Shown here one piece after another: positions 4,455-64,000 of a stretch of DNA of 64,000 bases (its first letter is position 1; every line of letters begins with the position of its first letter). This DNA comes from Zygnema cylindricum (lineage: Eukaryota > Streptophyta > Zygnematophyceae > Zygnematales > Zygnemataceae): assembly GCA_037447655.1 (NCBI GenBank), contig JBBHKE010001377.1, positions 436,241-500,240 of the forward strand. Reading direction: 5' to 3'. Position numbers and translations under genes: made by a program. The notes below the pieces were generated by a model. It was not told the DNA's origin. It ran no database searches and saw only the letters and a list, made by a program, of their open reading frames with translations.

Positions 4455-4462
4455 ATAATTTA

Positions 4463-6511: not shown

Positions 6512-6513
6512 CC

Positions 6514-8181: not shown

Positions 8182-8184
8182 CTC

Positions 8185-10345: not shown

Positions 10346-10437
10346 AAATCAGACCTAAATCTGCAGACTAGAAATAGAGTGGCAACAAGATAGAAAGAAA
10401 AGATTGCAAGAAAGAAAGAAAAAGAACAAAACAAAAT

Positions 10438-10520
10438 GTTTTTTTTTTCCCTTTTTTTTTTTTTTTCTTTTTTTATAAAATAAAATTTATAAATTTATTT
10501 ATTTTTATAATATTTTATTC
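10438..10520. repeat. Poly-T tract followed by A/T-only sequence
   Basis: A run of nearly 40 T interrupted by a few C is followed by A/T-only sequence. Low complexity; no coding content. Confidence 0.85.
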
Positions 10521-10906
10521 AAAGGCAAAACTGAAAGCAAAAGCAATAATGGAGGGACAGTAGAATGAAGCTTGTAGAAAAATAAAGCAAAGTCAAAAGG
10601 AAAAAACCAACTCAAAATATAGGTGGGAGAAAATCTTGAAATGAAAAAAATAGATTTTCTATTGAAAATAATTTAATTTTTATATTTTTCTTCCTCCAGA
10701 TTTATTTTATCACACAAAACTGAGAAGTACAACTGAAACTGAAAGGTAAATAGGCAGGAAAATAGAAAGACAAAATAAGAATAAAAACCGGATATGAAAG
10801 GTAATATTTTTTTAATGAAATAAAATGTATATTTTTAATAATTTAATATTAAAAAAATAGACTTTTAGAAAATGTGATTTTGAAAAGTGGAGCTTTTGGA
10901 CAAGAA

Positions 10907-12116
10907 TGCTAAGCCAGGAGGTAGCCACTAGGCTCTCTTGTCTTTATCACATTCTCTACAAGAGTTATCTCGTTACGACAGCAAAGCAAGAAATATTCCA
11001 ACCGGAACAAGGGAAAATCCAAATCCAATCAAAAATACACTCCTTTCAAGCCAACCGAAATACAAACAAGACACAAACACACAACCAAACCGTCAAGCTG
11101 CCCGAGGAAGGCACAGCAAGGTACAGATGTGCTCCCCCACGATCTCCAATTCCACACTTCCACCAAAAGACAAACTTTGGAGGGAAACCTTCCGGACGTG
11201 GCCTTAGGCCGTGTGGATTAAAAACGTGGGCAAAAATAAAAGGGGAAATATTCTTAACCTATCTAGCCTCTACAGCTAGCAAGCAAGGAGAAGAAAGACA
11301 CGTGGGCAATCAGTGAGAGAGAGAGCAAGAGAAAAGCTCCGCTGCCAAGAGAAAATTCTTGTCCAAAAGCTAAATTCTCTAAGTCTGAGAATTAGGCTAA
11401 GTAAGAGCTACGCTAGGCCTAAGCAAAATTAGCCTACGTGTAGTCTACTTCACATGCATGAAACTACTTTAGATGTTGGCCAATAGGCGGCCAACATCGT
11501 CTGCCGTACGCTTGACAAAATCCACCGTCCAAGGGTAAAATCCCTCCCTGACTACATGTATGCGCGAACCTACATGGGTTCGCGATTTAAATAAATACAT
11601 GTATCGAAGCGTCGCCCGGAAATCGCGATACGCCTCCAAACGATACTTCACGTCGATACTCCCAAAATCGCGTGCATACGCACGAAACGAAACATACCTC
11701 ACGAAACGAACCATATCGCACGAAATATCCCTGGAAATCGCGATGCGTCGCTCAAACGATATTTCGCGTCCATAATTTGAAAATCGCATACCTGCGCACG
11801 AAATGAAACATATAAAACGTGTGCACGGAATTAGTATGTGTGTAATTGTATGTGAACGCAAATCGCGTTCACATCATAAACAAATGAACCGACGAAAACT
11901 CGCACGTGCGAACGCAAAAATCAAACGTGCGTGCATCAAATCGCGCGTGCATGCACAAAACCACGCGTGCTTGCGATATATCGTGCGTGCGTGCAAAATA
12001 CTGCGCGTGCGTGAGAAATTCCGCGCGTGCGAGCATTATATCGTGCGCGCATGCCAAATATTTCGCGTGCGGGCATGATATCGTGCGTGCGGGCAACCGA
12101 CACGATGCGGCATGAC

Positions 12117-12117
<1 letters not shown>
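10907..12117 (-). repeat. Right LTR (5' LTR) of element B, truncated
   Basis: It matches the left LTR from TGCTAAGCC to the minisatellite. The 20-bp repeat is present once as a block at about 11920-12100 rather than in three units. Homology stops at ...CGGCATGACA, and the last ~190 bp of the left LTR (6306-6492) have no counterpart here. Confidence 0.75.
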
Positions 12118-12148
<31 letters not shown>

Positions 12149-29700: not shown

Positions 29701-31101
29701 ATCGAGCGCTACAAGGCCAGATTTGTGGCAAAGGGATTTACACAAAAGGAAGGAATTGACTACGAGGAAACCTTTGCCCCGGTGGTCAGATTTCCCTCCG
29801 TCCGCATACTTCTCAGTTTAGCAGCGGCGGAAGACATGGAAGTGCACCAGATGGACATCAAAACAACCATTTTGCATGGAGACTTAGAAGAGGAGATCTT
29901 CATGCGACAACCCGAAGGGTTTGTGGAAGAAGGAGAGGAGAGTAAGGTATGCCGGCTGATTAAATCTCTTTATGGTTTGAAACAGGCGCCTCGACAGTGG
30001 AATAAGAAGCTTGATGAGTTTCTTACCGGTCTAGGATATATTCGGATCAGTTCAGATCACTCAATCTATGTTTTCGAAGATGAGGAAGGTTTTATATTTA
30101 TTGCAATTTATGTTGATGATTTGCTTGTTTTAAGTAAATCAATGGAAAAAATTAATAAACTGAAAACCGATCTTAAGGGGAGATTTGAAATGAAGGATAT
30201 GGGGGAAGCAAAATATATTTTGGGAATTCAAGTAGAGAGAGACCGAAAAAGAAAAATTATAAGATTGACTCAAATGGAAGCAATAGGGAACATGCTTGAA
30301 AAATTTCAAATGGATAAAGCTAATAGTTGTACAACTCCAATGGAATTGAAGAAGGGAAGTGAGGGGAGTGAGGAAGAAGGAGTCATAGTCTTAGACGAGG
30401 AATTATCTCCTGATGAACAAAAGTTCATGCAGACTATTCCTTACAGGCAAGTAGTGGGAAGTCTAATCTATTTTATGAATTGTACCCGGCCGGATTTAGC
30501 TGCAGCTGTAGGAGTGCTGAGTAGAAGTCTAAATGCTCCCACTAAGAAGGATTGGGAGGCAGCTAAGAGAGTCCTTAGATACTTGGTAGGAACTAGAGAT
30601 CTATGGTTGCATTTGGGTGGGGAGAATACTGACATCACTACTTGGAGTGATGCCAGTTATGGTGATGCTCCGATGAGGAGATGTACTTCTGGATATGTAT
30701 TATATGTGGGTGATGGGGCTTGCTGTTGGAGTAGCAAACAGCAAAAGGTTATTGCTCAGTCCACCATGGAGGCTGAGTATATGGCCTCTTGCTCTGCTGT
30801 AAAAGAATTGATGTGGGTCAAGTCTTTGCTTGGTGAGCTTGGTCACCTTAAGAGTGGTGTGCAGAAAATATTTTGTGATAATCAGGCAGCAATCGCTATT
30901 TCTGCCAATCCTAAACACCATTTTAAAGCCAAACACATGGACATCAGACTCAGCTTTGTTAGAGAGAAAGTAGAAAACAAAATAATCAGTTTAGAGTACA
31001 GACCAGATAGTGAGATGGTAGCAGATATGATGACCAAACCTGTGCCTTCCCCTAAGCTATTTTTTTTGCAGGGAGAAGTGTGGTCTGAAATTAAAGATTG
31101 A
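26746..31101 (+). pseudogene. Copia gag-pol polyprotein of element C, one frame with two TAG codons
   Basis: A single frame of 1452 codons starts at the ATG inside the LTR. It is interrupted only by TAG at 27421-27423 (the D copy has Gln) and at 28639-28641 (the D copy has Trp). Domains by codon number: gag; CCHC knuckle CHFCKKPGHYMAEC from about codon 300; protease D-S-G-A with Asp at codon 387; GAG-pre-integrase HKRLGHVNLDKL and CSGCAQGK; integrase triad Asp 584, Asp 647 and Glu 683, giving D-62-D-35-E; RT with YVDD at about codons 1122-1125; RNase H with TTWSDASYGDA and CDNQAAIAI. All catalytic residues I can check are intact. The product would carry out the full copia cycle if the stops were absent or suppressed. 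Both stops are C-to-T or G-to-A changes, so decay is the simpler reading. Confidence 0.96.
26766..26780 (+). promoter_or_regulatory. Primer binding site, half-tRNA-Met (element C)
   Basis: GGTTATGGGCCCACC directly follows the LTR. All 15 nt complement the plant initiator tRNA-Met anticodon arm as I recall it. The site is translated as V-M-G-P-P within gag. Confidence 0.88.
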
Positions 31102-40502: not shown

Positions 40503-40762
40503 TGTCTAGCGTGCTTGAGAAACATGAGAGAAGGGCCCACTGCGAGGAGTATTCGGCATCGAAGTCCTGCAAATAACCCCCAAAATGCGAATGCTTTTCA
40601 TAATAATGATTATGCCCACTGCTGCCCGCATTCCTCCTATGGACATGCATGCAAAATAGGGATGAGTGCATGGGGAGGGCGAAAACATATCTCCTCCCCC
40701 TTCCTTTTCCCACTTGGCCGGGGAAAGGGGTTGGGTTCTTGGTAATTGAGTCGGTGTCCTGA
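40503..40762 (-). repeat. 260-bp direct repeat, copy 1 (LTR-like)
   Basis: Matches 41956-42215 along its whole length (TGTC[T/G]AGCGTGC ... GGTGTC[C/T]TGA). Copy 2 sits next to the polypurine tract of element K, so this is probably a second LTR of the same family. Its ends are not clean TG...CA. Confidence 0.65.
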
Positions 40763-41955
40763 TTTTGTTATGATCTGTTGGAAGTCTAACAAATGTCCTC
40801 TCAAAATCCACTATTCTGGTACAAAAGATTTTGGTAATCAACCCCGGAGGAAAACCAACCGAAGCCCCAAAAAGGACTACCAAAGAGAGAACAAAGACAC
40901 TCCCACTGAGAATAATGATAGGATGAAATAAAAATAGGCTGTCTCAGAATAAACAATATCACCTTGCCCTAGAAATTAGAGAATAAAGGTATAATTTGGA
41001 ATGATAGCAAGCGAGCTCAACATACCCCCAAAATGTAACATTGACAACAAGAGGAGTCAAAATCTCTCTCGAAGACACCAAAGCAGGTAAAAGCCTCCTT
41101 AACTCCTCGGTTTCCGCAACCCGGAACCGGCAAGACCCTTCTCCGTATCCAACAGACACTATTCCCAAATCGCCCAAACAGGAAAGATAGTGCCAACTAC
41201 CCAACCGGACTACGACTTCCACAAATGACAGATGCTAACAAAGATGGCAATAGGGTTACAATCACATACAAAAAAAAAGTTCTCCAAAAGAAAGTTTGCG
41301 CAAATTTCTAAGATTTTTCTCAGGAGACAGTAAAGAAACAGCAACTTGTGTCCTTCGGCCCCAAGCACCTTATACAACAAAGTTTGTCCAGTTTCAGATC
41401 CAAAAGGTCAACGTAATGCAAGGAGCCAATGAGCGGAGAGCATTTGCTATCGAACTCACATAGGACAAATAAAGCCGTTCCACAGGGCAAAAATTTCTGC
41501 TTCAGACTCCGGCTAAATCCAAAACTGAGAGTCCAAATTGGAACCACTAATCCACCAAAAATCCTGAACCGGCGTAGGAACACCAGACTTTGACTTAGGG
41601 TGATTAATGGACTGAAAGTCATCTGAACCTGAACTGAATTCCGACTGATAGATAATAGCATAATCTAAATGACAATCCAAAAAGTTATGTGGCCATCCAC
41701 AATGTACCCCCCACTATGGCAGGAGGAAGCTAGTCGTTGGTAACAGAATTGCAATCTTTGAGACGGGAGAACTTGGCCATCCGACCTCCGTTAGGGGTGA
41801 AATAAAGTGCGTCCCGCTCAATTTGAAAAATAAAAGAATCATGTTTAGCTGTGTACACTCGTTCCTCCGTACTTTGATGTCCGTACAGGGGAAAATGGGC
41901 CCGGAAATCCTTGGTGAAATAAAAGGGTGCGTGTAAAGCACATGAGCTTGACAGT
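40763..41955. other. Unidentified sequence between the two 260-bp repeats
   Basis: About 1.2 kb with only short minus-strand frames (40883-40506, 41222-40959, 41661-41320) that I cannot assign. It may be the internal part of a small non-autonomous element bounded by the two repeats. Confidence 0.4.
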
Positions 41956-42215
41956 TGTCGAGCGTGCCTGAGAAACATGAGAGAAGGGCCCACTACCAAT
42001 AGTAGTCGGCATTGGAGTCCTACAAAGAACCCCCAAAATGAACATTCTTTTTATATTAATGATTATGCCCACTGCTCCCCGCATTCCTCCCATGGACATG
42101 CATGCAAAATAAGGATGAGTGCATGGGGAGGGCGAAAAGATATCTCCTCCCCCTTCTTTTTCCCACCTGGCCCGGGAAAGGGGTTGGGTTTTTGGTAATT
42201 GAGCCGGTGTCTTGA
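41956..42215 (-). repeat. 260-bp direct repeat, copy 2: probable 3' LTR of element K
   Basis: Same sequence as 40503-40762. A pyrimidine run TTCCCCCCCTCTTA at 42217-42230 follows, which is a polypurine tract on the minus strand, and then the pol frame of K. Position and context fit a short 3' LTR. Confidence 0.65.
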
Positions 42216-42258
42216 TTTCCCCCCCTCTTAGTCAACCGTGACTAAGACATAAGAATAA

Positions 42259-42912
42259 TTACCCACCCAATTCGCAGTTCCTGCAGAACAAGAGGGAAGA
42301 GGCTTTAGGACGAGAGTCCCAAGAGGATGGAAGGCAGGACTGATGCCAACATTGGTCACATCGGTCACACACTAGTATAGGACCCGCAGAAGATGACAAG
42401 AGGCAGCCGGAGGAATATGAAGGTGGGTCGGCAAAATATGTGAGGTGAAAAGTCAGCTCGTCTTCCAATCCTCGTAGGTGACAGGGAGGTACATTGATCT
42501 GATTCTCCTTGATTTTCCGACCATCTTTCCCTTCCAGTGTCAAAACACCCTTATTGGAAACCTCTACCATTTTTAAGATCACCCAAACTGCCGAAATGTC
42601 CAGCGTGTCCTTTTTCTGTTGCATCCAATACACGAAATCTCCGGGCATAAATCGTCGTTGCCGCTGGACAAAATTCTCGCTCCGGCGTTGCGAATACCAA
42701 AGTTGATCTCGGTGCTGAGCTGCTTGTAAATTCCCCATGGCTAGAGGCATTTCTCGGTGAAATACCTTGGCTCTGTCGGCAATCAGTTTCTCGACCGTCC
42801 CCTTACTATCCTTCACCGGAAAGACCACTAATTGGGCGGAGGGAGCGCTGGATAGGGTTCGATGTCGTCCAAACAAAATGAAATAATGATTGTACAAGTG
42901 GAGGGAGGCCTG
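42259..42912 (-). pseudogene. Integrase C-terminal domain fused to a PHD-finger-like zinc module (element K)
   Basis: The open frame 42897-42259 (212 codons) continues the integrase frame after one TAG at 42913-42915. Residues 1-150 hold the usual gypsy integrase tail (ADRAKVFHREM, RRFMPGDFVYW, VSNKGVLTLEGKDG). Residues 162-208 then show S-S-G-C, CDRCDQCWHQSCL and CRNC. This fits the PHD pattern C4-H-C3 with Cys165, Cys177, Cys180, His185, Cys188, Cys205 and Cys208 in place; the first ligand is Ser162 (TCC, one base from TGC). An aromatic Trp sits before the His, as in canonical PHD fingers. The frame ends four residues later. Many plant gypsy integrases carry a chromodomain at this place, so a histone-reader role in target choice is a reasonable inference. 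A chance run of cysteines is unlikely given spacing and order. Confidence 0.75.
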
Positions 42913-43760
42913 CTAGCTAAATTTGTACCCTATGGCAATCGAAGGCACCCTTTTATCCCACTCTCCTAAATCCTCTTCAATATCATATTTCCGCAGCGAT
43001 TGCTTCATTGTTTGTACGCACCTTTCGGCCAAACCGTCGGCTTGTGGGTGGTCTCGGCTGGTCAGCCGGTGGTCGATGAGGCACAATTCCAACAAGTTGA
43101 AGAATTCTCCCGCGAATTCGGAGCCCTTGTCAATCAGAACTTTGGCTGGTAACCCAAATTGGGACAGCACTCTCTCTAAGAATGCGTCCGCAATAGCCTT
43201 GGACTCCTTCCGCGGTAAGACCACCAATTCGATCCACTTGGAAAAATGCTCTATCATTACCAATACAAAGCGGTTTCCTCCTATGTTGGTAGGGAGAGGA
43301 CGTAGCAGATCCAAAGACCACCAATTAAACATTCCCTAGATGGGAAGGGATTGAAGCTGGGCACCTCATTTTTTGTCGAAAGCTGCTTTGACTCGGTCAC
43401 AAGAAGAACGCATCTGCAAAATCAGGTTGACTTTGGTCCGCAACTTGTGCCACCAATACGATCCTGTGACTAGAGAGGTGGTCTGTTTCTACCCAAAATG
43501 GCCACATTATTGGTGGAGGCGAAAAATAAGAGTCTCCCTGTCAACCGATAGGGGGACCACTTTCCTCGTCTCGTCTGCCCATTTCCGGATTAAAATGCCT
43601 CTTTCCCACTCGTATGCCGCCATTCGAGTTTGAACCCAGGATAACTGAACTCCAGACAAATAGGGAAGAGGGGAACCTTGATTGATAGATTGAAATGTAT
43701 CAAGGTTATTCCAAATATCTTTCCGCCCGGCCCCTATTAGCGCTTGCCCCTCCACGTTTG
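42913..43760 (-). pseudogene. Ty3/gypsy integrase N-terminus and catalytic core (element K)
   Basis: The core frame 43332-42913 contains the three catalytic contexts: SLDLLRPLPT (first Asp), VLIDKGSEF (second Asp) and DHPQADGLAERCVQTMK (Glu). The upstream zinc-binding part (43760-43340) has histidines (RLHQ, CGHFG) and one CDR, but the second Cys of CX2C is replaced by Val, and stops lie at about 43506 and 43345. The core would insert the DNA copy into the host genome. Nonsense codons on both sides make it inactive. Confidence 0.85.
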
Positions 43761-43788
43761 CAAAGAAAGTTGACAGTTTCCCCCCAGA

Positions 43789-44330
43789 TTAAGGAAGCCA
43801 AATAAAGGTAGTGGAAGCTCGAATGCGTCCCAAACTGATTTCGGGATCCTCATCGTGACGAGCCCCGGTAGAATCTCTGGTGGAAGGGTCAGGATTTCTG
43901 CTAAGTCTGTCGGCATTCCCATGGATTTCTCCGGCCCGCTGGATTATGTCGAAATCATATTCTTGCAGTATTAACACCCATCGGGCGAGCTTGCCAGTTA
44001 ACTTACTGTTTTCTATAATCCACCTGAGAGGTTGGTGATCCGTAATCAGGGTGAAGTGATCCCCGTAGAGATATGGTTTGAAATGTCTGATTGCCGAGAC
44101 AGCTGTGAGTAACTCCCCGTGGTAGCTACTGTAATTCCCCTCGTCTCGGTTGCTACTTCTACTGGCATAAGCCACCACATATTCGGCCCCCGCATCGTCC
44201 AATTGAGCTAAAACAGCTCCCAATCGAAACCTGCTCCAATCAGTGTAAAGGAGGAACGACCTCTGATGATCGGGCATCCAGAGCACTAGGTGTTGTTTAA
44301 GGGAATCCTATAGAAATTGGAATGATATCT
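43789..44330 (-). pseudogene. Ty3/gypsy RNase H (element K)
   Basis: The open frame 44286-43789 shows YTDWSRFRLGAVLAQLD, AYASRSSNRDEGNYSSYHGELL, LITDHQPLRWII and EIHGNADRLSRNPD, the standard RT-RNase H order with the acidic residues D, E and D in place. A linker typical of gypsy RT connection (FIREFSSHAQPLNQLL) precedes it with stops. The enzyme degrades RNA in the RNA-DNA hybrid. Confidence 0.88.
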
Positions 44331-44416
44331 GTTGTCTCCCTTCACTGCCACCCATGGTCCTTCCGCAACAACTGGTTCAAAGGCTGAGCGTGACTGCTAA
44401 ATTCACGGATGAACTT

Positions 44417-45056
44417 CTAACAGTAGTTAGCCAAGCCTAAGAACATGCCTAGTGCAGAGAGGTCTTGAGGAGGGGGAAGGGTATCAAAAGATGCCACCTT
44501 GACCATATGGGGACCCACCGTCCCGGGTGTAACTTCATGTCCCAGGTAAAAAAAATTCTGCATCACAAAAATTCCCTTACCTAGGTGACATTTCAAGCCC
44601 GCTGCTTGGAGAGCCCGGTGTACAATCTGTATGTGCTCCGTGATCCTCGAGGGTCTTTGAGAAGATAATAATATTGTCGATATAGCACCGTGCACAGTCG
44701 ATTCTCTGGAGCGCCTTCTCCATGGCACGTTGGAATTTGGCTGGTGCGTTCTTTAGCCCGAATGGCATGTAGAGCCATTCATAAAACCTGGAACCTGTCC
44801 AAAACGTTGTCCTTTCTCGGTGTCTTGGCTCCATTGCGATCTGATGGAACACATTCTTCATGTCTAAAGTGGAAAAAATGGTGGCCCCGCCCAACGAGTC
44901 GAAAATCTCTTCCAAGGTTGGCATTGGGTATCGATCTGGTACGCTCGCCGTGTTAAGCATCAGGTAGTCTCCACACATGTGAAAGTCTACCGTTTTCCCA
45001 GACGAGTCCTTAGGTGGGAGAACTGTTAGGGACACAAACCCATGGACGTCAAAGCA
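44417..45056 (-). pseudogene. Ty3/gypsy reverse transcriptase, N-terminally truncated (element K)
   Basis: The frame 45035-44577 carries FHMCGDYLMLN, STLDMKNVFHQIAM (first catalytic Asp), YMPFGLKNAPAKFQRAM and CYIDNIIIFS. The YXDD box reads YIDN, so the second catalytic Asp is lost. A frameshift near 44660 leads to 44728-44417, which contains YLGHEVTPGTV and LGMFLGLANYC. The N-terminal fingers upstream of KDSSG are absent. The enzyme would be inactive. Confidence 0.88.
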
Positions 45057-45301
45057 TCCTACCTTAACATCATTGTACCTCTAAACCCTTATTATTATTT
45101 TCTAAAGACCTGATTAATGGAACATTATTTTTTATTACTTAACTAAAAAACAATGTTATTCAGGTATTTACATATATTGGACCGTACACAAAACGTTCCA
45201 ACCGTACACAAAACGTTCCAAATGCTTAGTCAGCGGTAGTCGCTAAAGTCCAATTGAATGTGGTCGTGTAGTACGAAGCACCTGAGTGCTTCGTCACTTG
45301 T
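45057..45301. other. Unidentified sequence left of element E, with a 20-bp tandem duplication
   Basis: No frame supported. A perfect tandem repeat of ACCGTACACAAAACGTTCCA fills 45181-45220. Confidence 0.7.
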
Positions 45302-51631: not shown

Positions 51632-51758
51632 GAAAGCGTGAGAGTGTGTGTAAGACACTAGAGTGGGAAGAACTTTGAGTGGTTGACTCGAGACGTTAAT
51701 GAAATTTTATGGGTTACATTCCCCCATAGAGTTCGCAGATCCAAAGAAAAGCTTATCT
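51632..51758. repeat. ~127-bp direct repeat, copy 1 (copy 2 at 51881-52005)
   Basis: Both copies contain methyltransferase sequence, GTTAA and the first ~60 bp of LTR M in the same order, offset by 247-249 bp. This points to a local duplication made after M had inserted. Confidence 0.75.
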
Positions 51759-51948
51759 GTGAGACCATGGGCAGCCGTAGTGTTGAGAAGGAAATGCATG
51801 AGGTGTTTCCGTTCTGTGGTTGTAGGCTCATCTAGGCCGCCTGTGTGAATATTTTTGAGTAGGCCGGGCCCATCGCCAGAGAAAGCGTGAGAGAGTGGGT
51901 AAGACACTAGAGTGGGAAGAACTTTGAGTGGTTGACCCGAGACGTTAA
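51707..51948 (-). pseudogene. C-terminal part of a C5-cytosine DNA methyltransferase (element L)
   Basis: The minus-strand frame reads VSGQPLKVLPTLVSYPL, SHAFSGDGPGLL, GGLDEPTTTERKHLMHF and NTTAAHGLT. I recognise this as the segment between target-recognition region and motif X in a group of plant and microbial C5-MTases. The frame is in phase with the piece ending at 59601 when LTR M and one GTTAA are removed. The last residues (DKLFFGSANSMG) look like motif X, but the ~60 bp that encode them also match the end of LTR M, so that part may be a fusion. The domain would transfer methyl groups to cytosine. As it stands it is split and inactive. Confidence 0.7.
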
Positions 51949-53026
51949 TGAATTTCTATAGGTTATATTCCCCCACAGAATTTAAAGATCCAAAGAAGCT
52001 TATCTAGATAGTGCCAACTCCAAGTTTATACAAACCCAAATGATTAACACCTTGACAGTCAAAACTCAAATACAGCTTCAACCCCCGTGAAACAAGACTT
52101 TGTGTGTGCTCAGTTCCCCCACAGAATGCAAATTTAGAATATGAGTATTTGGACACATTCCCCCACTTTGACTTTCCCTTAGAAATATAGCCACCCTCGC
52201 AGGCAAAAACTTTGACTTACTACAGCGCTGTGTAGCCTAGACTCCCTTGAGTCCGCAACAAAAAGAGTATCTGAATTTGCTCCTCGAGCATTAAGTTTTA
52301 GTTGTTCAAAGACAACGAATTTTTACAAAATGCCTCTGGGAGAGAGGGCTTCCAAAAATGTCTAAGTACTAAGAACTTACTCAAATTATCATATACTGTA
52401 TAACGTACAAACAAAGTATGCTAGCCGCCGTACTTTATGTACGAAATTATGCGGCACCACTCTCGGTCTGCCACGTGGCATATAAGTCGCACCATTGTGT
52501 CTTTTTCTTCTCCGGCATCCTATAGGATGTTGCCACGTGTCATTTTCTCTATTTTCGCGAAGTGTCTCCAAAATAGCTATTCGTGCATGCAAGCACTCAC
52601 GTGGGCCGTCCGTTTGAAATACGACGATCAACGTCAGTTGTTTGATCTTGACGACGCGCCAAATCTTTTTCCGACCGTTGAATTTCTAACGCCCTCGTCC
52701 TTTTTCACGTTCGTTGAAATTCTACCGACGTAAATTCGGTACATTAAATGAAAACGTCGTCATTAACTTTCTATTCAAATTTCAAAATAGAAATTCTATC
52801 TGTTTTTTTTGCCTTAATGGATAAGTAGAACGACTATTACTAGTCTGCCGACCACGTTCAAATCTGGACAAAGGCAACATAATGGTAATCTTCTTAATGA
52901 GATTCTCTACGTATTAACCTTATATATCTATTCTACCCTAAATAACTCAACATTGGTCCAAGACTATTGGATAAAGTTACCGAATGTATTTGATTTGACG
53001 GACCGTAGGTACCAGGATCAAATTCT
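51949..53026 (-). repeat. LTR M (solo copia LTR), left part
   Basis: It starts TGAATTTC after GTTAA and shows LTR hallmarks in minus orientation: CTAGATAG near 52004, the hairpin GACTC-CCTT-GAGTC followed by CGCAACAAAAAG near 52245, and the B-box-like GGTACCAGGATCAAAT near 53010. Interrupted at 53026 by element G. With the right part it is about 1281 bp. No internal region accompanies it, so it is a solo LTR. Confidence 0.8.
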
Positions 53027-54033
53027 TGTTGAAATAAGTAGGTTTTGTTGTATTTTCTAGGTCTAAAACTAATTAGCGGAAACATATAAAGAAAATGTAG
53101 GCAGCCTGCCTCCATCTCTTCTCTCTTGCCCCCATACTTGTTGTAGTCACTGAAAGAGAGAGAGAGCGATAGAGCCATGGCTACCTCAGCTCCATAGGAA
53201 GGACCAAAGAGTGACTTAAGTCACACTCAACAAAAGGTTGAGTCCGACAGGACTCGAACACCCGACCTGTAGAGCACGGCGTAGCCGTTAGCTCTAACCA
53301 GTCTGTCGTAGAAGTCCGTTAGGAGATATAGGGTTTCATTTGTATTTAAACTGTTCTATAATACATAAACCATTTAACTGTAATATGGACGAACGGACAT
53401 AGAACTTGTTAAGGTTTAGTGCGAATGTCATTTCGCACGAAACAAATGAAACGGACATTTGTTTTAAACGGTCGACATTCAATGTCGGATTTAATCCAAA
53501 GGCGCACATCATCGCCGAGATCGCGGAATGGTCATTTTGGATTTTAGGGACGTGGCATGACGTGGCGCCGCGTGGAAGGATGACATTCGGTCGCAAGAAT
53601 TCCGGAGAATATATGAACGAGTGGAAAAGTGACACGCGTCCACTCAACAGCCTTGTCGTACACCAGCCGTACAGAAAGGACATCGGTCGTAGTACCTTTA
53701 TGTACTTTACAGTAATATGATTGGTTCGTACTTCAATAGATAGGGGTTGTGAGAGAGGTTTAAGACTTAAGAAATTTCGGTAGATAATCACCTCTCTCTA
53801 AGAGAGCTTTGTATAAATTGGCATTTTTTGCCGGCTCATAACTTATCGGCTGGTTGGTTGTTTTCAGTAATTCTTTTTGCTACAAACTTCGGGGAGTCCA
53901 AGCTACATAGGGGAGCAGTAAAACTGTCATATTACCTTCCTGGACAGCAGTGGTTGTGGCTTGAAGTGGGTTAGTTAAATACTATCTAGAGGCTTCTTGT
54001 ATTCTGTGGTCCAATGGAGGACACAGAATTGCA
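53027..54033 (+). repeat. 5' LTR of element G
   Basis: TGTTGAAATAAG...AGAATTGCA. It includes the palindrome near 53173, an antisense tRNA-like segment at about 53230-53305 and a TATA-like TATAAATT at 53812. The primer site after it reads GGTTATGGCCCCACA, two differences from the family sequence. Confidence 0.95.
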
Positions 54034-57000
54034 GGTTATGGCCCCACACTCTACGGTGCCCACCTTCAATGGATCTGGGTTCATCTATTGGGAAGCCATG
54101 ATGATGGGAGCTTTGAGCGAAAAACGATATTGGGGTATCGTTAGAGGACAAGTAAAACGTCCACCTTCAGGAACTCCACCAGGATTTGGAAGAGTAAGGT
54201 TTCCTGGAGCAACGGCTGCCTCAGCGGAGGAGGCAGATGATAGGGACAACAGTGTGTCCGAAAAGGGGAAAGGGAAGGAGACACCCCTCACTCCTATTGC
54301 CACAGTCCCAGAAGCGGCGACCGTGAAGACCTCGAAGAACGATACTAAAATGTGTGAGGATGTAAACATGGCTGCCAAAAACTTTATTCTGAGGCACCTC
54401 ACTCAAGCTTTGGCCACATCTCATATTCACATTTACAAGGCCGAGGAGTTGAGGGTGAGTTTGGTGGAGATTTATAGAGCTCGAACTATTTAGGAGCTCC
54501 AGTTGGCTGAGCAAAAGTTAGTGAGTTACACTTACAAAGGATAAAATGTTAGATTATTGTAATGATCTTTCTTGTTTGTATATGGATATGGAAAGTGCCG
54601 GGTGGACAGGTACAATGAAAATGAAAGTTAACACTTTTATCATGAAGTTACCAGATGAATTTGAGAACATAGTGTATCGAGTACAGGAAATGGCTGATAG
54701 TTCATGGAAATGGAACACAGTGGTCAGGATGATACTTGTGCAGGAAAACACAATGGAGATTAGGAGAGGAGGGAAGAGCATTCGAGCTCTAGCAGCAAGA
54801 GGGGACCGATGGGGGAAGGACCTGAAGAAACCTTACAAAAGGGGAAAGAGATCATTCTGGGGGGCCGAGGCCCCCAAAGGGTCTTTGTCATTTTTGCAAA
54901 AAGCCAAAACACTTCATCGCAGATTGTGTCAAGCTGTCGGAGCTGAGGCTCCAAGAGAACTGTGGAGGGGGTTTTTCCGGAGGAAAGAAAAAGGCACTTG
55001 TGGTTACAAAAGTGACAGGAGAAACCGAGGATGAGTCCTCTGAGGAGGATGGGGAGCTTCTTCTTGACGAGAGTCTGGAGGAGAAGGATATTCCTCGGAG
55101 GCAGAAGTGTGCCCTTGGAGCAATCCGGGAAGCTCCATAGGAAGGATGGATCATCGACTCAGGTGCATCCATGCATATGTGTCGTGATAAAGAACTCTTC
55201 ACTAAGCTAAGAAAAATCCCTACTGTAGAAATAGAGTATGGGGATGGGAGAGTGGTTACCACAGATCTAGTGGGATCAGTAGATCTGAAAGTCTTAGTGG
55301 AGGGTAAGACTTCTATACTTACATTTTCAGATGTACTCTACATTCCACGGCTGAGTAAAAATCTTGTCTCTACGTCTATGCTAGATGACAAGGAGTTTGA
55401 TACCTCCACTCGAAAGGGAGTCTTTACAGCTAAGTATGGGGATGAAGTGTACTTCACGGCAGATAAGGGTAGCCAAGGAATGTTTAGGCTTAACCTAAGT
55501 AATGAAAAAGAAGAATGCTTATTATGTTGGTGTTCCTAAGTTGAAGATTTGGCATAAGCGGTTGGGGCATGTGCATTTTGATAGATTAAGGGAAATGAAA
55601 AAGCTTGGGGTAGTAGAAGGCATTCAGTTTGGGGAATAATGAAATGATGGATGATTGTAGTGGTTGTGCTCAAGGTAAGGCTCACAGACTTCCCTTTCCC
55701 AAAGCCGCCACATATAGAGGTGAGAAAGTGTTAGATTTGGTCCACACAGATATTTGGGGACCCGCAAAAGTACCTTCGGTTGGAGGAAAAAGGTTTATGA
55801 TGACAATAAATGATGACTGGTCTAGATAATCTAGAGTCTACTTTCTGAAAACAAAGTCTGAAGAATCACCTTACTTCAAAGAATATAAAGCTTGGTATGA
55901 GAAGCTGCATGAAACCCCCATTTAGAGGATAAGGAGTGATAATGGGGGGGAATATACCTCTAACGAGTTTGAGGAATATCTGAGAGATGAGGGAGTGCAG
56001 CACCAAAAAACTATACCATATAACCCGGAACAAAATGGGGTAGCTGAGAGGTTGAATCGAACACTAGGAGATAGTGCATGCAGTATGTTGGCAGACAAGA
56101 AAATAGGAAAGAGATTTGGGGCACAAACAATTAATTTTGCTAACCACATTAAGAATAGAGTCCTTACCTCAGCTATAAAGGGAGTGACACCTTATGAGAG
56201 AGGGTTAGAAGGAAACCAAATATCTCACACCTTAAAGTACTTGGTAGCCAAGTTTAGAGTCTTGACACGGATAGGAAAAATCGGAAACTAGATACTAAGG
56301 GAAAACCTGGATACTTTGTGGGATATGATAAAGATGTTAAGGGATATAGAGTCTATGACTTAGAAAAGAAAGATAAAATTCTGGTCAAACACTTAGTCGT
56401 TATGGATGAAGGGAAGTCATTTGACCCTTTCAAATATACAAAGTAGATAAGAATCAGATTTGAGTCCGAAAGTGAGGAGAACTTGGTCGTTCCCGAAAGG
56501 CCCGAAAGGGACATGAGTGAATTCGTGATTGCAGATTCAGGGGAGATCCAAGATACAGGAGACTCACCGGAAACCTCATATACTCCTATGGACTTCAAGG
56601 AGATAGAAGAAGCGGGACAAGAACCAACTTCCATGGACAGGGGAGGCGATGAGACAGTGAGAAGAAATTTAAGACTTCCATCTATTCCAGCTTCAGAATT
56701 TTAGGGAGGAAGGAAGAGCAGCAAAAGGATACAGGAAAAACAAACGTCTCATATGGTAACTAAGCTATCTCACCCAGATGAGCCTTAGTCTTACTCAGAG
56801 GCAATGAATAGTCTAGAGAAAGAAAGATGGATTTTAGCCATAAATGATGAGATGGCTCCTATCATGGAAGCAAATACTTGTAAATTAGCGGATTGTCCCC
56901 CAGACAGAAAACTTATTGGGTATAAATAGGTATTTAAACTAAAACTGAACCCAAATAATACCATTGAGAGATATAAGGCTCGATTGGTAGTGAAGTGGTT

Positions 57001-58372
57001 CACTCAAAAGAAGGGGATTGACTATGAGGAGACCTTTGCTCCAGTTGTTTGGTTCCCCTCAGTAAGGATTCTCCTCAGTCTGGCAATAGCGGAAGATATG
57101 GAAATCCACCAGATGAATATTAAGACAACTTTTCTTAATAGTGAGTTAGAGGATGAAATTTTCATGAGGCAACGCAAGGGGTTCGTGGAAGAAAGAGAAG
57201 AGAGCAAAGTCTACATGCTCATAAAATCCTTATATGGACTGAAGCAGGCACCTCGACAGTGGAATAAAAAACCAGATGAGTTTCTCACCGATCAGGGATA
57301 TATCCGAATCAGCTCTGACCATTCTATCTATATGTTTGAAGATGAGAATGGTGTCATTTTTATTGCAATTTATGTGGATGATCTGCTTGTGTTGAGTAAG
57401 TCTTTGGAGAAGATCAATAGGCTGAAGAAAGATCTTAGGGGCAGATTTGATATGTAGGATTTAGGGGAGGAAAAATATATTTTGGGGATCCAAATGGAGA
57501 GAGATAGGGGGAAGAAGATTAGCACACTTACTCAGAAAGAAGCAATAGGTAATATGCTTGAGAAATTCCATATGGAAAATGCTAACAGTTGTACCACTCC
57601 CATGGACTTGAAAAAATTAAGTGATGGGAGTGTAGAAAGAGGAGTGATGATCTTAGACAATCAGATGAGTCTAAAAGGGAGAGAGTTTATGAAATCTATC
57701 CCTTATAGATAGTTCGTAGGAAGTTTGATCCACTTTATGAACTGTACCAGGCCGGACATAGCGGCGAAAGTTAAAGTACTCAGTAGGAGTCTTAATGATC
57801 CTAGGAAGAGAGATTGGGAGGCATCAAAGAGAGTTATGAGATATTTGGTGGGAACCAGAGAGTTATTGTTGCATTTGGGAGGGGAGCACACTGACATCAC
57901 TACTTGGAGTGATGCCAGTTATGGGGACGCACCTATGAGACGATGCACTTCTAGGTATGTGTTGTATGTTGGGGAAGGTGTTTGTTGTTGGAGCAGTAAG
58001 CAACAAAAGCTGGTTGCTCAGTCCACCATGGAGGCTGAGTACATGGCCTATTCTTCTGCTGTGAAAGAGTTGATGTGGGTCAAGTCCTTGCTGCAAGAAC
58101 TGGGGTATATGAAGGAGGGAGTGCATGAAGTATTTTGTGATAATCAAGCAGCCATAGCAATTGCAACCAATCTAAGACATCATTTTAAGGCTAAACATAT
58201 GGACATAAGATTAAGTTTTGTAAAAGAAAAAGTTGAGAATAAAATAGTGAATCTTGTATATAGATCTGATGAGGAAATGGTTGCTGAGATGATGACCAAA
58301 CTTGTGCCGTCTCCAAAGTTGAAATATTGCAGGGAAAAATATGGATTAAAAGAAAAGAAAAAATTTGAATAG
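54014..58372 (+). pseudogene. Copia gag-pol polyprotein of element G, many stops and frameshifts
   Basis: It starts M-E-D-T-E-L-Q-V-M inside the LTR. Pieces in order: gag 54014-54493 and 54546-55034, with the knuckle CHFCKKPKHFIADC frameshifted near 54890; protease SGASMHMC near 55160; linker 55171-55539; GAG-pre-integrase and integrase 55629-55829 (HTDIWGPAKV) and 55995-56291 (NGVAERLNRT); RT 56984-57457 (EETFAPVVWFPSV, YVDDLLVLSK) and 57482-57712; RNase H 57725-58372 (TTWSDASYGDA, CDNQAAIAIATN). At least ten disruptions are present. Despite similar LTRs, coding decay is strong, so either the LTRs have been homogenised or the copied parent was already defective. Confidence 0.94.
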
Positions 58373-58385
58373 AAAATAAAGGGAG

Positions 58386-59392
58386 TGTTGAAATAAGTAG
58401 TTTTTGTTGTATTTTCTAGGTCTAAAACTAATTAGCGGAAACATATAAAGCAAATGTAGGCAGCCTGCCTCCATCTCTTCTCTCTTGCCCCCATACTTGT
58501 TGTAGTCACTGAAAGAGAGAGAGAGGGATAGAGCCATGGCTACCTCAGCTCCATAGGAAGGACCAAAGAGTGACTTAATTCACTCTCAACAAAAGGTTGA
58601 GTCCGGCAGGACTCGAACCCCCGACCGGCAGAGCCTGGCGTAACCATTAGCTCTAACCAGTCTGTCGTAGAAGTCCGTTAGGAGATATAGGGTTTCATTA
58701 GTATTTAAACTGTTGTATAATACATAAACCATTTAACTGTAATATGGACGAACAAACATAGAACTTGTTAAGGTTTAGTGCGAATGTCATTTCGCACGAA
58801 ACAAATGAAACGGACATTTGTTTTAAACGGTCGACATTTAATGTCGGATTTAATTCGACGGCACACATCATCGCCGAGATCGCGAAATGGTCACTTTGGA
58901 TTTTATGGACGTGGTATGACATGGCACCGCGTGGAAGGATGACATTCGGTCACGAGAATTCCGGAGAATATACGAACGAGTGGAAAAGTGACACGCGTCC
59001 ACTCAGCAGCCTTGTCGTACACCAGCCGTACAGAAAGAACATCGGCCGTAGTACCTTTATGTACTTTACAGTAATATGATTGGTTCGTACTTCAATAGAT
59101 AGGGGTTGTGAGAGAGGTTTATGACTTAGGAAATTTCGGTAGATAATCACCTCTCTCTAAGAGAGCTTTGTATAAATTGGCATTTTTTGCCGGCTCATAA
59201 CTTATCGGCTGGTTGGCCGTTTTCAGTAATTTTTTTTGCTACGGACTCAAGGGAGTCCAAGCTGCATAACGATACAGTCAAACTGTCATTTTGCCTTCCA
59301 GGACAGCAGTGGTTGTGGCTTGAAGTGGGTTAGTTAAATACTATCTAGAGGCTTTCTGTATTCTGTGGTCCAATGGAGGACACAGAATTGCA
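58386..59392 (+). repeat. 3' LTR of element G
   Basis: Preceded by GAAAATAAAGGGAG (polypurine tract). It ends AGAATTGCA before the ATTCT duplication and retains the hairpin GGACTC-AAGG-GAGTCC near 59242. Confidence 0.95.
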
Positions 59393-59397
59393 ATTCT

Positions 59398-59600
59398 GGG
59401 TTCGTCAAACTGCTTTTGTGGTAAGTCTACCAAACCTATTCTCTGTCTCTTTAGAGAGCTTTGGCAACCATCACTCTATTTCCCTCTCTAACCTTCAGTG
59501 ACTACGACAAGTGTGGGGGCTAGGAGAAGGGAGTTAGAGACAGACTGCCTTTGCGTTTTTCAATCCCAATATAAACTTAAAAAATATAAAAATATCAACA
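59398..59600 (-). repeat. LTR M (solo copia LTR), right part
   Basis: It completes LTR M after element G. It contains the shared CAGTGACTACGACAAGTGTGG phrase (about 59490-59510) and ends ATATCAACA, followed by GTTAA. Confidence 0.8.
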
Positions 59601-60060
59601 GTTAATGTTGTAATTCAACGGGTGATCAGGCTGAAGACATGTTGGGACTTTATCAAAAGGCATAAGTGCGGTATAAATATCTGAAAAAAGGGGTATGACA
59701 AAAAAATTCCCTTCTCTAAAGCGACCAATATCAATCAAGTTGGTCCATTTAGATCGGACCCAATGGGCTAAGGACCCGTGACGAGTGGCATCAATGATAA
59801 GAGGAGGATCAATTAATACTTATTTCCGCTTGTAATCAGCTAACATTGCAGGTCGAGGATCGTTATAGGCTGCCACATTTTCCAAAATATATCCCAATGG
59901 TCAATCTAATGATTGCAGAAAAATGCATAATACGAAGTAATTCAAAATATAATTGAGTGCGAGGATCTGCTAAGTCGAGACCTTTGCCTGCTCGTGACAT
60001 TCCTTGACACTCCTAACTAGCAAAGAGAAGATTGATTGGTTTCACATCAAAAAGGTGTTG
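59601..60060 (-). pseudogene. C5-cytosine DNA methyltransferase domain, central part (element L)
   Basis: On the minus strand I read LPQDIRLIG, then ECQGMSRAGKGLDLADPRT and LYFELLRI (motif IV context; the usual PCQ reads ECQ, with a TAG at 60013-60015 just before it). After a one-base frameshift comes YILENVAAYNDPR (motif VI, ENV, at 59874-59882), and then IIDATRHGSLAH and WVRSKWTNL at 59772-59735 (motif VIII region; the usual R-x-R is changed). From about 59870 to the break at 59601 the frame is open except for one TAA, and it continues in phase at 51948. Motif I was not found upstream; sequence at 60500-60060 is too damaged. In this enzyme family the cysteine in motif IV attacks the base and it is present (TGT). 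The domain is non-functional here. Confidence 0.75.
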
Positions 60061-60069
60061 ATTACCTAT

Positions 60070-60600
60070 CAAACGAATATCTTGAGGTAAGGTTGTATGC
60101 ATGTGAGCAAAGGCGGATTTGGGAAAAAGATGTGAATATTGTCCGTGTAAAATATTACAGTGATGTGTCTGGGCTTTCCGAGCTAAGGGTCAGTGTGGAC
60201 TAAGTAGTAGTGCTTGATAAGTAATCCATTGCGAAGGCATGAGGGTAGATAGGTACCTATAAATTTGAATAGATAAAAAATGACCAGTCAATCTTGATTA
60301 GGGTTAAGCTGAATTCGTTTCCAATTAATGGGAAGAAAACCAGAAAGGATCTACTAAAATGAGAGGAGAGGGTGGAACTCGAGATAAATGAATTTGAATT
60401 GTGTTTTTGTAAATGTGATCAAACTTGCGAGAATCAATAATAAAACCTAGATTATCCAAAATTTTAGGCAAAGAAGGACTATCGGGCGAAATTTCCTCTG
60501 CGGATAGAGAATGGAAAATTTCAAATCCCACAGAATTTCTGTAATAAGAAAAGACAGGTTAGGCTCTGTGAGCAATAATGGGTATAGGTTGTCCTGCTGA
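60070..60600 (-). pseudogene. Linker and probable N-terminal methyltransferase region of element L, unresolved
   Basis: One open piece, 60531-60325 (FHSLSAEEISPDSPSLPKIL), and fragments such as MPSQWITYQALLLSP and PKSAFAHMHTTLPQDI near 60240-60080. The latter plausibly precede motif IV, but stops and frame changes prevent assignment. Element B has no counterpart of this segment. Confidence 0.45.
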
Positions 60601-61072
60601 AATTAGAGGAATGCATATTTTAGTTTTCCGGATAATTGGTAGGACGGTATGAAAATGTGTGATCGTACATGTGAATGCCGCCTCCTACTCTGAAAATCAC
60701 ATCTTGCCCCACTAAACATTCGTAATCACTACATTTGGTGACAAATGCGTGAGCACGGACTTTTGCATAATGAGATTTTGTACCACTTTGAAACCTAAAA
60801 CATAGTGGATCCTTTGTAATGCCCAGAACTGGTTCGGTTGTTCCCGTTGAGGTGAGTAAACGTGTGGCAGAAGGCTAAAGTTTATTTGGTGTCAGGCATA
60901 GTTTAAGTGCAAAAGATGACCCCAAAATAACTAGTTTTACACCACTCTCCATAAGTGGTAATGATTGGTTGACACCATTGCCTGAAAATGCACCCTTCCC
61001 ATTATCTACAAAAATTGATGTGTGTGTCAAGTGAACTACGCTCATCGGTAAAGATAGGCCTAAGAGTGTCAA
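60600..61072 (-). pseudogene. Retropepsin-like protease region of element L
   Basis: SLPLMESGVKLVILGSSFAL at 61000-60930 aligns with the protease start of element B. Here the catalytic Asp is Glu and the following Gly is kept, the reverse of the damage in B. Downstream, YECLVGQDVIF and HTFSYRPTN are shared with B. Stops at about 60872 and 60620 break the frame. Confidence 0.6.
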
Positions 61073-61199
61073 GATTACGGTTCATTTGTAAAGCCTGTAA
61101 TGCTGCAGATGGGATCGATGAGACATTAGTTTTAGGGTTGGGAGAATCGAAAATCATAGTAGATAAAATGCCCAATCTTTCCTTAACCCTATGACGATC

Positions 61200-61926
61200 C
61201 TAAATAAAGCGGTCAAGAATGGTGAGTGCTTTCGTCGTGATGGTGGAAGTTGTTTTGGGCAAATTAGTTAGGGACTCTTTCGAAAATGATAATGGAAGAC
61301 GCGTGCTAGACTGTTTACCCTCATGATTGTGATCAACTGTCCCCTTTTCAAACGTGGTTGCCCGCTTTTGGATGGTTGAATCTCGTAAGACTCGACCAGC
61401 TAGCGTGGGAAGGTGGACAACTGTACGGGCCATACAACTTAGGCGAGTTGGTGGTTCCATTTGAGCCATAAGGGCTATAAACTGGTCTTTGATCATGGCG
61501 ACCATTTGAGTTTGCATTTCCTCTCTCTCTTTTTCTCTCCGAGTCATTTTAGGTAGAGAATCTTTTTTTGGCTCTTTAACTGGTTGGACTAGTTAGGCGA
61601 ATCGGGCCAAAATTCTGCCATGTCGAATCTGATTTTGGTATGAAAATTCAGAGTTTTTTATATGGCAGCTACACACGAAATGGCCTGTCTCTTTGCAATG
61701 TGTACAGGTCGCAGATTTATCCGTACACATCCGAGCATCGTGCTCAATCTTACCACATCAGAAACAAATCCGATTGGATGGTTAGTTTGGTGGAGTTCCT
61801 ATAGATAGGACCCTTGGTGGCCGATTATTTGGCCCTAAGTTACCACGATTAGGTGGATTGAAAGGGTTTGGTTCCTTTTGAGGAGCTTTTGGTCGATCGT
61901 GAGCTTCCCACTAACAATTTGTCATC
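61200..61926 (-). pseudogene. Gag zinc-knuckle region of element L
   Basis: Two knuckles lie at about 61770-61660. The first, CF-stop-CGKIEHDARMC, has a TGA or TAG in place of its third residue. The second, CTHCKETGHFVCSC, is intact (CX2CX4HX4C). They are followed by the basic, Met/Gln-rich stretch MTRREKEREEMQTQMVAM and an open frame 61547-61200. Homologous to 8181-7240 in element B, including DARMC-D-KSATCT. Confidence 0.78.
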
Positions 61927-62962
61927 TCGTATTCTACGGCGTATTGAGCTGTCTGGTCAAAAGTAAATTTGAGACCGTATGTTTGGGTAAGATGTCTTTG
62001 AATAAATTTCTTCGACTAAAAAGGAAACTATTGTACAAACTTTAGAGCGGCTTGGGCTACTAAAATTAAATCCAGTAAAGCTTCTTGGAAAGTCTCCATG
62101 GGGCTTGTAAAGCGGGGGCAGTTTCGCTCGGTTTACGCTCAAAATATATTAATTATTTAACTTGGTCAAGATTTTGCATACGATACTCTTCGTGTAACAA
62201 ATTAAACATTATGGTGAGAGGGTCTCGTAACAAAATGGTCATCGCGGGTAGTGCTGAGACAGTGGCTCGTTGTGCAATGGCATATTGGTTGGGAACTTCC
62301 GCCACAGCCAGGTAAACAACATTGCTGTGTGCATCTAAGGCCTCATAAATAGCAATTTGATAAGGGATTTCTGCTTGACCTATAACCCCAGGCATCCCTG
62401 CAAACTGTGGGGAATATTGAGTCATCACAAGTATGGCATCATAGTTGCGAGAATATAAGGTAAGGGCGGAATTGCGAAGGTAACGCCGGAGAAGGGAAAA
62501 AATGACATGCATGTCGAATCTTTCATCATAACGAAAAGCTAGATCTCGCATTTCACTATCAAACAACATTCAAAAAAGGGATAAACTCATAGTATCCTTC
62601 ATTCCGAAAAACATAATTGAAGTTTACTGGAAGGGTTCTCTGATGTGGAGGCCATCAAAAGAGATAAGATAGTTGAATTCAAAACCTGAATCGGTACTAT
62701 GGAGACCAAAAAGAAAGAGAATCCCAATAGGATCCCCCTTCTTTATCAACCTCTTCCACAGATAGTGTGGATGAAATGGATGATAAAAATGACAAGGTGT
62801 TGTATTTGAGCGGGTAGACAACGTTGTAGATGCAATTGGAGGACTTGACGTCAAAGGAATCGAATTCAATAGATTTCGTCGATCAAAATTTGACGAACGG
62901 AAAGTTCCACCACTACGTGTAAATCCGGTTGAGTAGTCAAGATTATCCGAATCAATGGGCAT
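61927..62962 (-). pseudogene. Gag capsid region of element L, broken
   Basis: ATG at 62962. The open N-terminal piece to 62624 has low-complexity Ser/Thr-rich sequence (TSSPPIASTTLSTRSNT). The capsid piece 62569-62153 matches element B over SEMRDLAFRYDERFD, RRYLRNSALTLYSRNYD, VIGQAEIPYQ and EEYRMQNLDQVK. A further piece, 62142-61957, reaches AQYAVEYEM, where element B has a stop in place of Tyr. Frameshifts lie near 62600 and 62150. Confidence 0.75.
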
Positions 62963-64000
62963 AAAAGTGACCGAGATAGAAACTAATTTACTGACGGATA
63001 CGCCCTATACGAAATGCACCGAATGCCAATCTACGCCACACACGTAGGAAACAATCTCAAAAAGTCTTTAACAAGGCCACGATGGCCAAATCTAATCAAC
63101 AAGCCGCTTTTACCAAAACCTCTACCCTACAAACGAGTAGGCAACGCCAAAGGGCTAGATCTATAAAAGTCGAATATGGCTAAACAAGCACTCGGAGGTG
63201 CAGATCTAAAGCTCCATAGGCGAAAAATAGCTCTATTCAAGGCCACCAACGACCAGATCTAGCCAAAAAATTTCACGCCAAACATACAACAATAAAATTA
63301 CAAGGCCACTCACGGCCTGATGGCAAGCATGGAAAGCGTGGACAATGCAGATGCTCAATACAATTGGGTCCAATTGAACCCAATCCACTCACGTACCCTC
63401 TAAACAATTAATAAACTATCGTAACAAGCGCCTGCACCCTTAATGCATTGTAATATTTACAAACCACTCTTAGCAACCTGGTGATTGCCAAGGGTAAACT
63501 GAGGTTCTCGCCACTACCAGAGTTTTGCAGAGCTCCCAAACAGATTCGCTGCACCAACTCCACTTCTTAGTAAGGTATGTCAAAATGGGAAGAATCGATG
63601 CCTCCGATCAACAAAGAGAAAACAACAAAAAACAAAACACTAAATTAGTGTAGTATATTCTTGGCCGAAAACTGGCCAAGGAGATAATTCTGTCCATTAA
63701 CAAGTAAATAAAAATTAAAAAATACAAAGCTAGTAATAGATTTTGTTTTCTCTAGTTTTTTTTTTCAAACAAACTATTACAACTTAGCACAAAAATCCCA
63801 AAATGCAAGGATCTATTATCAAATCGCAGAAATAAAAAGAAATACTGTCAAATTTACATCGAAGAAAATAAAGAAAAACCGACAATTTTGAATTGCAGAA
63901 AAATAGGGAAAGAAGACAATTTGAAATTGCAAAAAACAGGAAAACCTGACAATTTTAGGTTGTGGAAAATTAAGAAAAAAAGAGACAATTTCAAGAGCAC
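62963..64000 (-). other. Leader of element L, continuing beyond the window
   Basis: Related to 9225-9850 of element B up to about 63550. AT-rich beyond that, with no coding frame. Confidence 0.6.

Follow-up and report, generated by a model that had tools for sequence, protein, structure and literature searches.

C5 DNA methyltransferases (MTases) of the DNMT type have been reported in retroelements of few lineages, and their role there has been called unclear (de Mendoza et al., 2018, PMC5890265). The closest known system is KnitGypsy-Dnmt3 of Klebsormidium nitens; together with SymbioDIRS-Dnmt3 and SymbioLINE-Dnmt, it bears out the statement, in an earlier note on the DNA studied here, that retrotransposons of charophytes and dinoflagellates carry such enzymes (PMC5890265). 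A survey from 2025 places DNMT3 in Copia elements with long terminal repeats (LTRs) and in DIRS elements, and describes DRM as restricted to streptophytes (PMC12344493). According to an opinion article from 2019, land plants have no methylase transposons (PMC6338049). Here, we analyze a stretch of 64,000 nucleotides (the window) of the Zygnema cylindricum assembly GCA_037447655.1 (contig JBBHKE010001377.1, positions 436,241 to 500,240), in which the earlier note had proposed an MTase domain carried by a retroelement, L. We find a real, multi-copy family of MTase-bearing gypsy elements, which is known in kind through KnitGypsy-Dnmt3 and has variant features of its own. Element L is very probably a decayed gypsy-type copy of what we call family 1 (F1), with split direct repeats and a polyprotein of the order gag-CCHC-protease-DNMT3-like C5-MTase-reverse transcriptase (RT)-RNaseH-integrase-PHD, and a second element in the window, B, an internal-deletion derivative of a related MTase-bearing type.

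The methyltransferase of element L

The peptides on which the earlier note was based are present on the minus strand, as claimed. The MTase of L consists of two separated halves, half 1 with motifs I to VIII (59601-60263, minus strand) and half 2, which runs up to the peptide HGLTD (51757-51948, minus strand). In the searches, stops were written as X, and the whole of half 1 was read through two frameshifts. Read in this way, half 1 matched PF00145 significantly (5.9e-7; 29.7 bits vs. a cut-off of 22) and PHROG 116 at 6.6e-10, and a piece of 108 residues with X at one stop was also above the PF00145 cut-off (6.9e-6). Among the structures in the PDB, half 1 was collinear with DNMT3A over 121 residues (E 0.006); a DNMT2-type tRNA C38 methyltransferase scored slightly better (E 0.0046), over 68 residues only. 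One reversed and two shuffled versions of half 1 matched no PHROG family at E 10, and the reversed version had no match in the PDB. Protein searches with the window MTase revealed no homologue among 588 candidates at E 0.01 or 750 at E 10.

Half 2 alone had no match in Pfam, PHROGs, NCBIfam or the PDB, so the PF00145 check that had been suggested for both halves succeeded for the first one. Half 2 is identified as MTase because relatives carry it directly after half 1 in the same frame. In the F1 copy L009, positions 4767-5438 correspond to half 1 and 5433-5630 to half 2, contiguously and in one frame, which confirms that the halves, 7.6 kb apart in the window, join in phase. Identity to F1 relatives amounts to 64-80% for half 1, where aligned in one main piece, and to 52-86% for half 2. 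Beyond HGLTD (~51757) the relatives continue differently, and the sequence there is therefore not MTase; the range originally given for half 2, 51948-51700, holds down to this point and has to be abandoned for the remainder. The peptide LFFGSANSM, located past HGLTD, was considered as the MTase end and is ruled out by the same relatives. The ECQ that had been assigned to motif IV is present, with no Pro in front of it to make PCQ: the window copy reads stop-E-C-Q (60015-60004) and its relatives W/S-E-C-Q. Motif VI is intact (ENV), and the RxR of motif VIII is WVR.

Two methyltransferase-bearing families in the genome

The genome (352.8 Mb, 2689 contigs) was searched with PF00145, which yielded 123 scored matches, all above cut-off, from 782 first-look candidates. 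Both numbers are minimum values, and the list lacks the decayed copy in the window. We read 37 distinct places among the 123, i.e., 20 stretches of 9.9 kb, mostly picked for long open frames, 12 stretches of 1.6 kb, picked for varied match ranges, and five non-overlapping search loci (L001, L002, L003, L007, L008). All except two carry retroelement MTases of either F1 or a second family, F2 (35/37); one of the others is a host gene of the DRM type (L036), and L007 matched neither family. Such MTases, which had been described as rare, are not so in this genome. To F1 belong 15 of the long stretches (L009, L010, L013-L018, L020, L022-L027) and three of the short ones (L037, L040, L042). F2 is found in the remaining five long stretches (L011, L012, L019, L021, L028) and in four of the search loci, and eight short stretches are F2-like (L032-L035, L038, L039, L041, L043). 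In the long F1 stretches, a protease lies upstream of the MTase in 15 of 15, and in all of them but L025 (14) an RT follows the MTase on its strand; the RT is downstream of the MTase in all five long F2 stretches. The host gene L036 (C2414:27000-28600) has an open frame of 345 codons and a rearranged motif order; given the restriction of DRM to streptophytes (PMC12344493), it points to a probable streptophyte host.

In L009, a single frame of 2395 codons encodes gag, CCHC, protease, MTase, RT, RNaseH, integrase and PHD, so that a relative with gag and MTase in one frame, for which the earlier note had suggested to look, does exist. Its Pfam matches comprise PF00145 (2e-11, 44.4 bits), RVT_1, RNaseH, Integrase_H2C2, rve and PHD; zf-CCHC stays below cut-off with 16.6 bits, and the protease, which has no protease-family match in Pfam, was placed by its likeness to that of B. 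Among the Pfam matches of L009 and the F2 copy L011 at E 0.01, the rve integrase was found and no tyrosine recombinase. Both copies have the MTase within a pol polyprotein together with RT, RNaseH and a DDE integrase, an arrangement that the window copy has not preserved. Ahead of the F1 MTase, the adjacent 200 residues form an open frame in L009, L010, L013, L020 and L025 and contain scattered stops in L015, L016, L018 and L024. The description of L as a gag-protease LTR element was right in that a retroelement carries the C5-MTase and too small in extent, since relatives have a full pol. For the same reason, the idea that B and L are natural gag-protease elements lacking an RT was rejected. 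Scans of viral contigs with the protease frame of B and with a Copia pol yielded no relative.

Among the F1 rows of the MTase tree, L020 is the nearest relative of L (79% identity over 222 residues, support 99). The MTases of F1 and F2 are 37-42% identical to each other, and either is about 29-31% identical to DNMT3A, which suggests that both families may derive from one MTase capture; the two outgroups of the tree fall together, and the tree itself does not decide the matter.

Type of methyltransferase and constraint

When compared with solved structures only, the best PDB matches of the F1 and F2 MTases were both DNMT3A (1.2e-10 and 5.6e-13, respectively), and the F2 MTase also matched DRM2 (3.7e-4). 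The motif order, read in one frame, is unpermuted, i.e., of the DNMT3 type. To our knowledge, the Pro-Cys pair in motif IV is otherwise fixed in C5-MTases. It is present in F2, where Pro precedes the catalytic Cys in 18 of 18 sequences (17 places, as L006 and L012 overlap). In F1, all 20 sequences, which represent 18 places because L004 overlaps L026 and L005 overlaps L020, have Glu in its position, with 15 WECQ, two stop-ECQ, two SECQ and one WECH; the window copy agrees. Most F1 translations have kept ENV or ENI in motif VI and RxR in motif VIII, the latter being broken in L025.

Constraint was assessed on eight F1 and six F2 copies with a full-length ungapped MTase, frameshifted or gapped copies being excluded. 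Among the F1 pairs, 18 of 28 were saturated, with proportions of synonymous (pS) and nonsynonymous (pN) differences of 0.75-0.85 and 0.11-0.19, and the ratio of nonsynonymous to synonymous substitution rates (dN/dS) was 0.10-0.41 in the other ten. In F2, dN/dS was 0.12-0.57 in 14 of 15 pairs, and one pair was identical. The sample includes decaying copies, with stops in L020, L026 and L028, and these should push the ratios up. The values indicate that substitutions between F1 copies are mostly silent and that the MTase is under purifying selection.

In F2, a conserved TAG-CAATTC stop is located between the protease and the MTase, 159-195 nt upstream of the start of the MTase alignment. The sequence TAGCAATTC was found exactly and in frame at 13 of the 17 F2 places (L001, L002, L003, L008, L011, L012, L028, L032-L034, L038, L039, L043), and exactly yet out of frame in L041. 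Variants are present in L021 (TAGTAATTC) and L035 (TAACAATTC), and in L019, the last of the 17, the stop sequence was not found. MTase identity between the F2 subfamilies that share the stop falls to about 53-57% (L003, L032). Its context is one that we take to resemble the readthrough context of the tobamovirus type, and readthrough stops of this kind occur in plant LTR elements. The simplest reading suggested by the sequence is readthrough that would yield small amounts of MTase-pol.

Element L and its surroundings in the window

All parts of L are on the minus strand. The gag region (61932-62611) is broken by stops and one frameshift, and in tblastn it is 65% identical to the gag of B over 170 amino acids and 60% over another 63 (E 3e-75). 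The nucleocapsid region with a CCHC zinc knuckle (61011-61928) is 49% identical to that of B (E 2e-97) and matches PF00098 (3.6e-4; 20.9 bits, cut-off 20.8). Next, at 60430-60991, come the aspartic protease (60991-60632) and a linker (60621-60430), with 61% and 32% identity to their counterparts in B. Pfam gave no match for the protease region of either L or B; the protease of L was called by its likeness to relatives, of which L013 matches Asp_protease_2 at 2.2e-4, just below cut-off. The order on this strand is gag, CCHC, protease and then MTase, as proposed. Of the left repeat, only the inner end (63999-64000) lies in the window; most of it is outside, and the 67-bp match to the left repeat of B (75%), in L031, extends to 64064 in window numbering.

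The insert that splits the MTase (51949-59600) has TTAAC on either side. It had been described as an inserted LTR; Copia-type LTR sequence is indeed there, and it also holds a complete Copia element (53028-59392, plus strand) with LTRs that are 94.4% identical and a target duplication, ATTCT. The parts flanking this nested Copia, 59600-59393 and from 53022 to 52119-52088, match LTRs of the window. These matches stop ~140-170 bases short of half 2 and thus account for the right end of the insert only in part. A tandem duplication on the minus strand (51632-52005), in which 52005-51881 recurs at 51758-51632 (89%), spans the insert end and the start of half 2.

Nested Copia elements occupy much of the window between 13.8 and 59.4 kb. 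The one at 28642-31101 has an open pol frame of 819 amino acids, for which the best protein matches, among 120 listed of 7906, show at most 47% identity. A truncated gypsy pol, in which Pfam supports RT, RNaseH, integrase and PHD (42259-45080, minus strand), was considered as the pol of L and rejected: by comparison with F2 loci it belongs to F2, its RT, RNaseH and integrase being 69-88% identical to those of L011, L012, L019 and L028, in all of which the MTase is upstream of the RT. On its right-hand side, B1 (42218-41956) and B2 (40765-40503; 90%) lie on the minus strand around ~1.2 kb (40503-42218), giving the order B1-A2-B2 with the junction GACA-AC-TGTC.

Split direct repeats and element B

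In DIRS and Ngaro elements, split direct repeats are arranged in the order A1-internal-B1-A2-B2, and a tyrosine recombinase is used. The copy that contains L009 (L029, L009 and L030; C1344:85514-96154, below called C1344) shows the same order, with the open frame between A1 and B1. A1 and A2 (931 bp) are 100% identical, and B1 and B2 (243 bp) 99.6%. The outer ends are TGTC...GACA, the 4-bp sequence TTGG is duplicated either side, and GACA-GC-TGTC stands at the B1/A2 junction. Together with the DDE integrase, the TG...CA ends, the TTGG duplication and the inner junction hint at how an integrase might give rise to DIRS-like repeats.

Element B (4264-12118, minus strand) contains a gag, a CCHC region, a protease and what is left of the PHD region. 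Its repeats, A1 (12118-10906) and A2 (5672-4462; 86%), and B1 (6498-6302) and B2 (4460-4264; 95%), are arranged as A1-internal-B1-A2-B2 and are older than those in C1344. B aligns with the F1 copy L013 from the protease to the linker (7292-6789); then L013 8773-8845 corresponds to window 6726-6654, and after this jump the alignment resumes at a purine tract (6536-6499). The ~4.3 kb missing from B comprise the MTase, RT, RNaseH and integrase. Because the deletion maps against L013, B would descend from the MTase-bearing type. The earlier note had left it undecided whether the lack of an MTase in B reflects gain or loss; it is loss, and B is, on this alignment, a predicted non-autonomous internal-deletion derivative that lost its MTase together with pol. 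A three-copy tandem array of 327 bp, rich in 20-bp units, lies between B1 and A2 (6314-5376). AlphaFold gave no usable model of the protease frame of B (mean pLDDT 33.8).

Proposed mechanism and alternatives

In C1344, which is unbroken and has almost identical repeats, one open frame covers gag, the MTase and pol. The protease would release the MTase within the particle, where it could methylate the new cDNA or the fresh insertion, in line with a proposal made for DIRS-type elements in Symbiodinium. The earlier note, too, had suggested that the family may methylate its own DNA, or else DNA nearby. The PHD finger may read histone tails at the target, and the DDE integrase would insert DNA opened at the repeat junction, producing split repeats without a tyrosine recombinase; the GACA-N2-TGTC junctions, the TG...CA ends and the 4-bp target duplication are the basis for this opening step. 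In a more specific version, which we regard as less likely than not, the Glu-Cys MTase of the F1 lineage, under purifying selection, would have either changed its methyltransfer chemistry or become a DNMT3L-like scaffold, and the DDE integrase would open a circular intermediate at the internal GACA-N2-TGTC palindrome, with DIRS-like split repeats as the result; the sister lineage, F2, would have kept Pro-Cys and have its MTase behind a readthrough stop, so that the enzyme is produced only along with pol.

Several observations weigh against this overall interpretation. The right end of L is lost, and of the 20 long stretches L009 alone keeps the entire polyprotein in a single open frame. The 4-bp target duplication was observed in one copy only, C1344, and was not evident when the ends of B were read. 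In another F1 copy, C783 (C783:159700-171100; L046, L018 and L047), A1 and B1 are present without A2-B2; perhaps, this copy is the product of another way of integration or of recombination. In C1407, B1-A2-B2 is present and the left repeat was not found within the stretch fetched, and in C1374 (F2) no split repeats were found within 14.4 kb. With Glu for Pro in motif IV, the F1 enzyme may have reduced, altered or no activity. Finally, since all relatives were recovered through PF00145, the impression that the MTase is always present is biased; with this limit, neither result that the earlier note had named as contrary to its claim appeared, as half 1 has a significant C5-MTase match and gag-protease is followed by an MTase in L009.

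As to the role of the MTase, it is possible, although not likely, that the enzyme does not protect the cDNA of the element but acts on the DNA of the host or of rival elements, or that it labels the element so that both can coexist quietly. Several such roles are listed by de Mendoza and colleagues, who call the role unclear (PMC5890265). Somewhat less probable still is a catalytically dead F1 MTase that is kept as a module for binding DNA or a partner. DNMT3L serves DNMT3A as such a partner, and both the Glu before Cys in 20 of 20 F1 sequences vs. PCQ in 18 of 18 F2 sequences and the continuing constraint would fit; however, the Cys, the Glu of ENV/ENI and RxR are kept in most F1 copies, and pure binding needs none of these. 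That the split repeats come from tandem or nested arrays of ordinary LTR elements and are no structure of their own seems improbable: the full pattern is indeed missing in C1407, C783 and C1374, but A1-internal-B1-A2-B2 is found in both B and C1344 and B1-A2-B2 in the window F2 copy, and the TG...CA outer ends of C1344 are flanked by TTGG on both sides. The notion that the remnant stems from a DNMT gene of the host, intact or as a pseudogene, beside which a gag-protease element came to lie by chance can be dismissed. The host does have DNMT genes of its own, e.g., the DRM-type L036, but half 1 is only 16% identical to that gene vs. 64-79% to F1 relatives, the MTase shares the 2395-codon frame with gag-pol in L009, and the protease-MTase order recurs in 15 of 15 F1 stretches, so that the relatives refute it.

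Comparison with known systems

Our literature search, mostly without subscription journals, found no report of the F2 stop or of elements of this kind in Zygnema, and none of the Glu-Cys motif, which was not searched by name. In the genome of Zygnema cf. cylindricum SAG 698-1a, Copia makes up 29.8% and Gypsy 5.9%, and PHD-family regulators outnumber those of the other strains of Zygnema in that study at least 9-fold (PMC9915684). If that strain is the host of the elements described here, retroelement PHD fingers could explain its PHD count. With many copies, two diverged families, at least one unbroken copy and a natural contrast between Glu-Cys and Pro-Cys, the role of a retroelement MTase becomes testable: is the new cDNA or the insertion methylated, and is catalysis needed?

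Several known systems share part of the features of the Zygnema elements. Metazoan DNMT3A/3B provide the best PDB match and have the same unrearranged motifs, whereas the MTase described here is part of a polyprotein and only about 29-31% identical to DNMT3A. TR-GAG non-autonomous elements resemble B in having gag without an RT; B differs in its split repeats, protease and PHD remnant. DIRS and Ngaro elements have a similar repeat order, but the elements here contain an rve integrase and, in C1344, a 4-bp duplication. SymbioDIRS-Dnmt3 and SymbioLINE-Dnmt likewise combine a DNMT with a retroelement, but these are dinoflagellate DIRS and LINE elements and not gypsy elements with a DDE integrase (PMC5890265). 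KnitGypsy-Dnmt3, the repeats of which have been likened to those of DIRS, is closest: the streptophyte host, the gypsy pol, the DNMT3-type MTase in the polyprotein, the DIRS-like repeat order and the purifying selection on the MTase are all common to it and the elements described here (PMC5890265). What we note for the Zygnema elements, with KnitGypsy compared by its description, are the 123 MTase matches, the two families, the Glu-Cys motif of F1, the TAG of F2, the PHD end and the deletion derivative.

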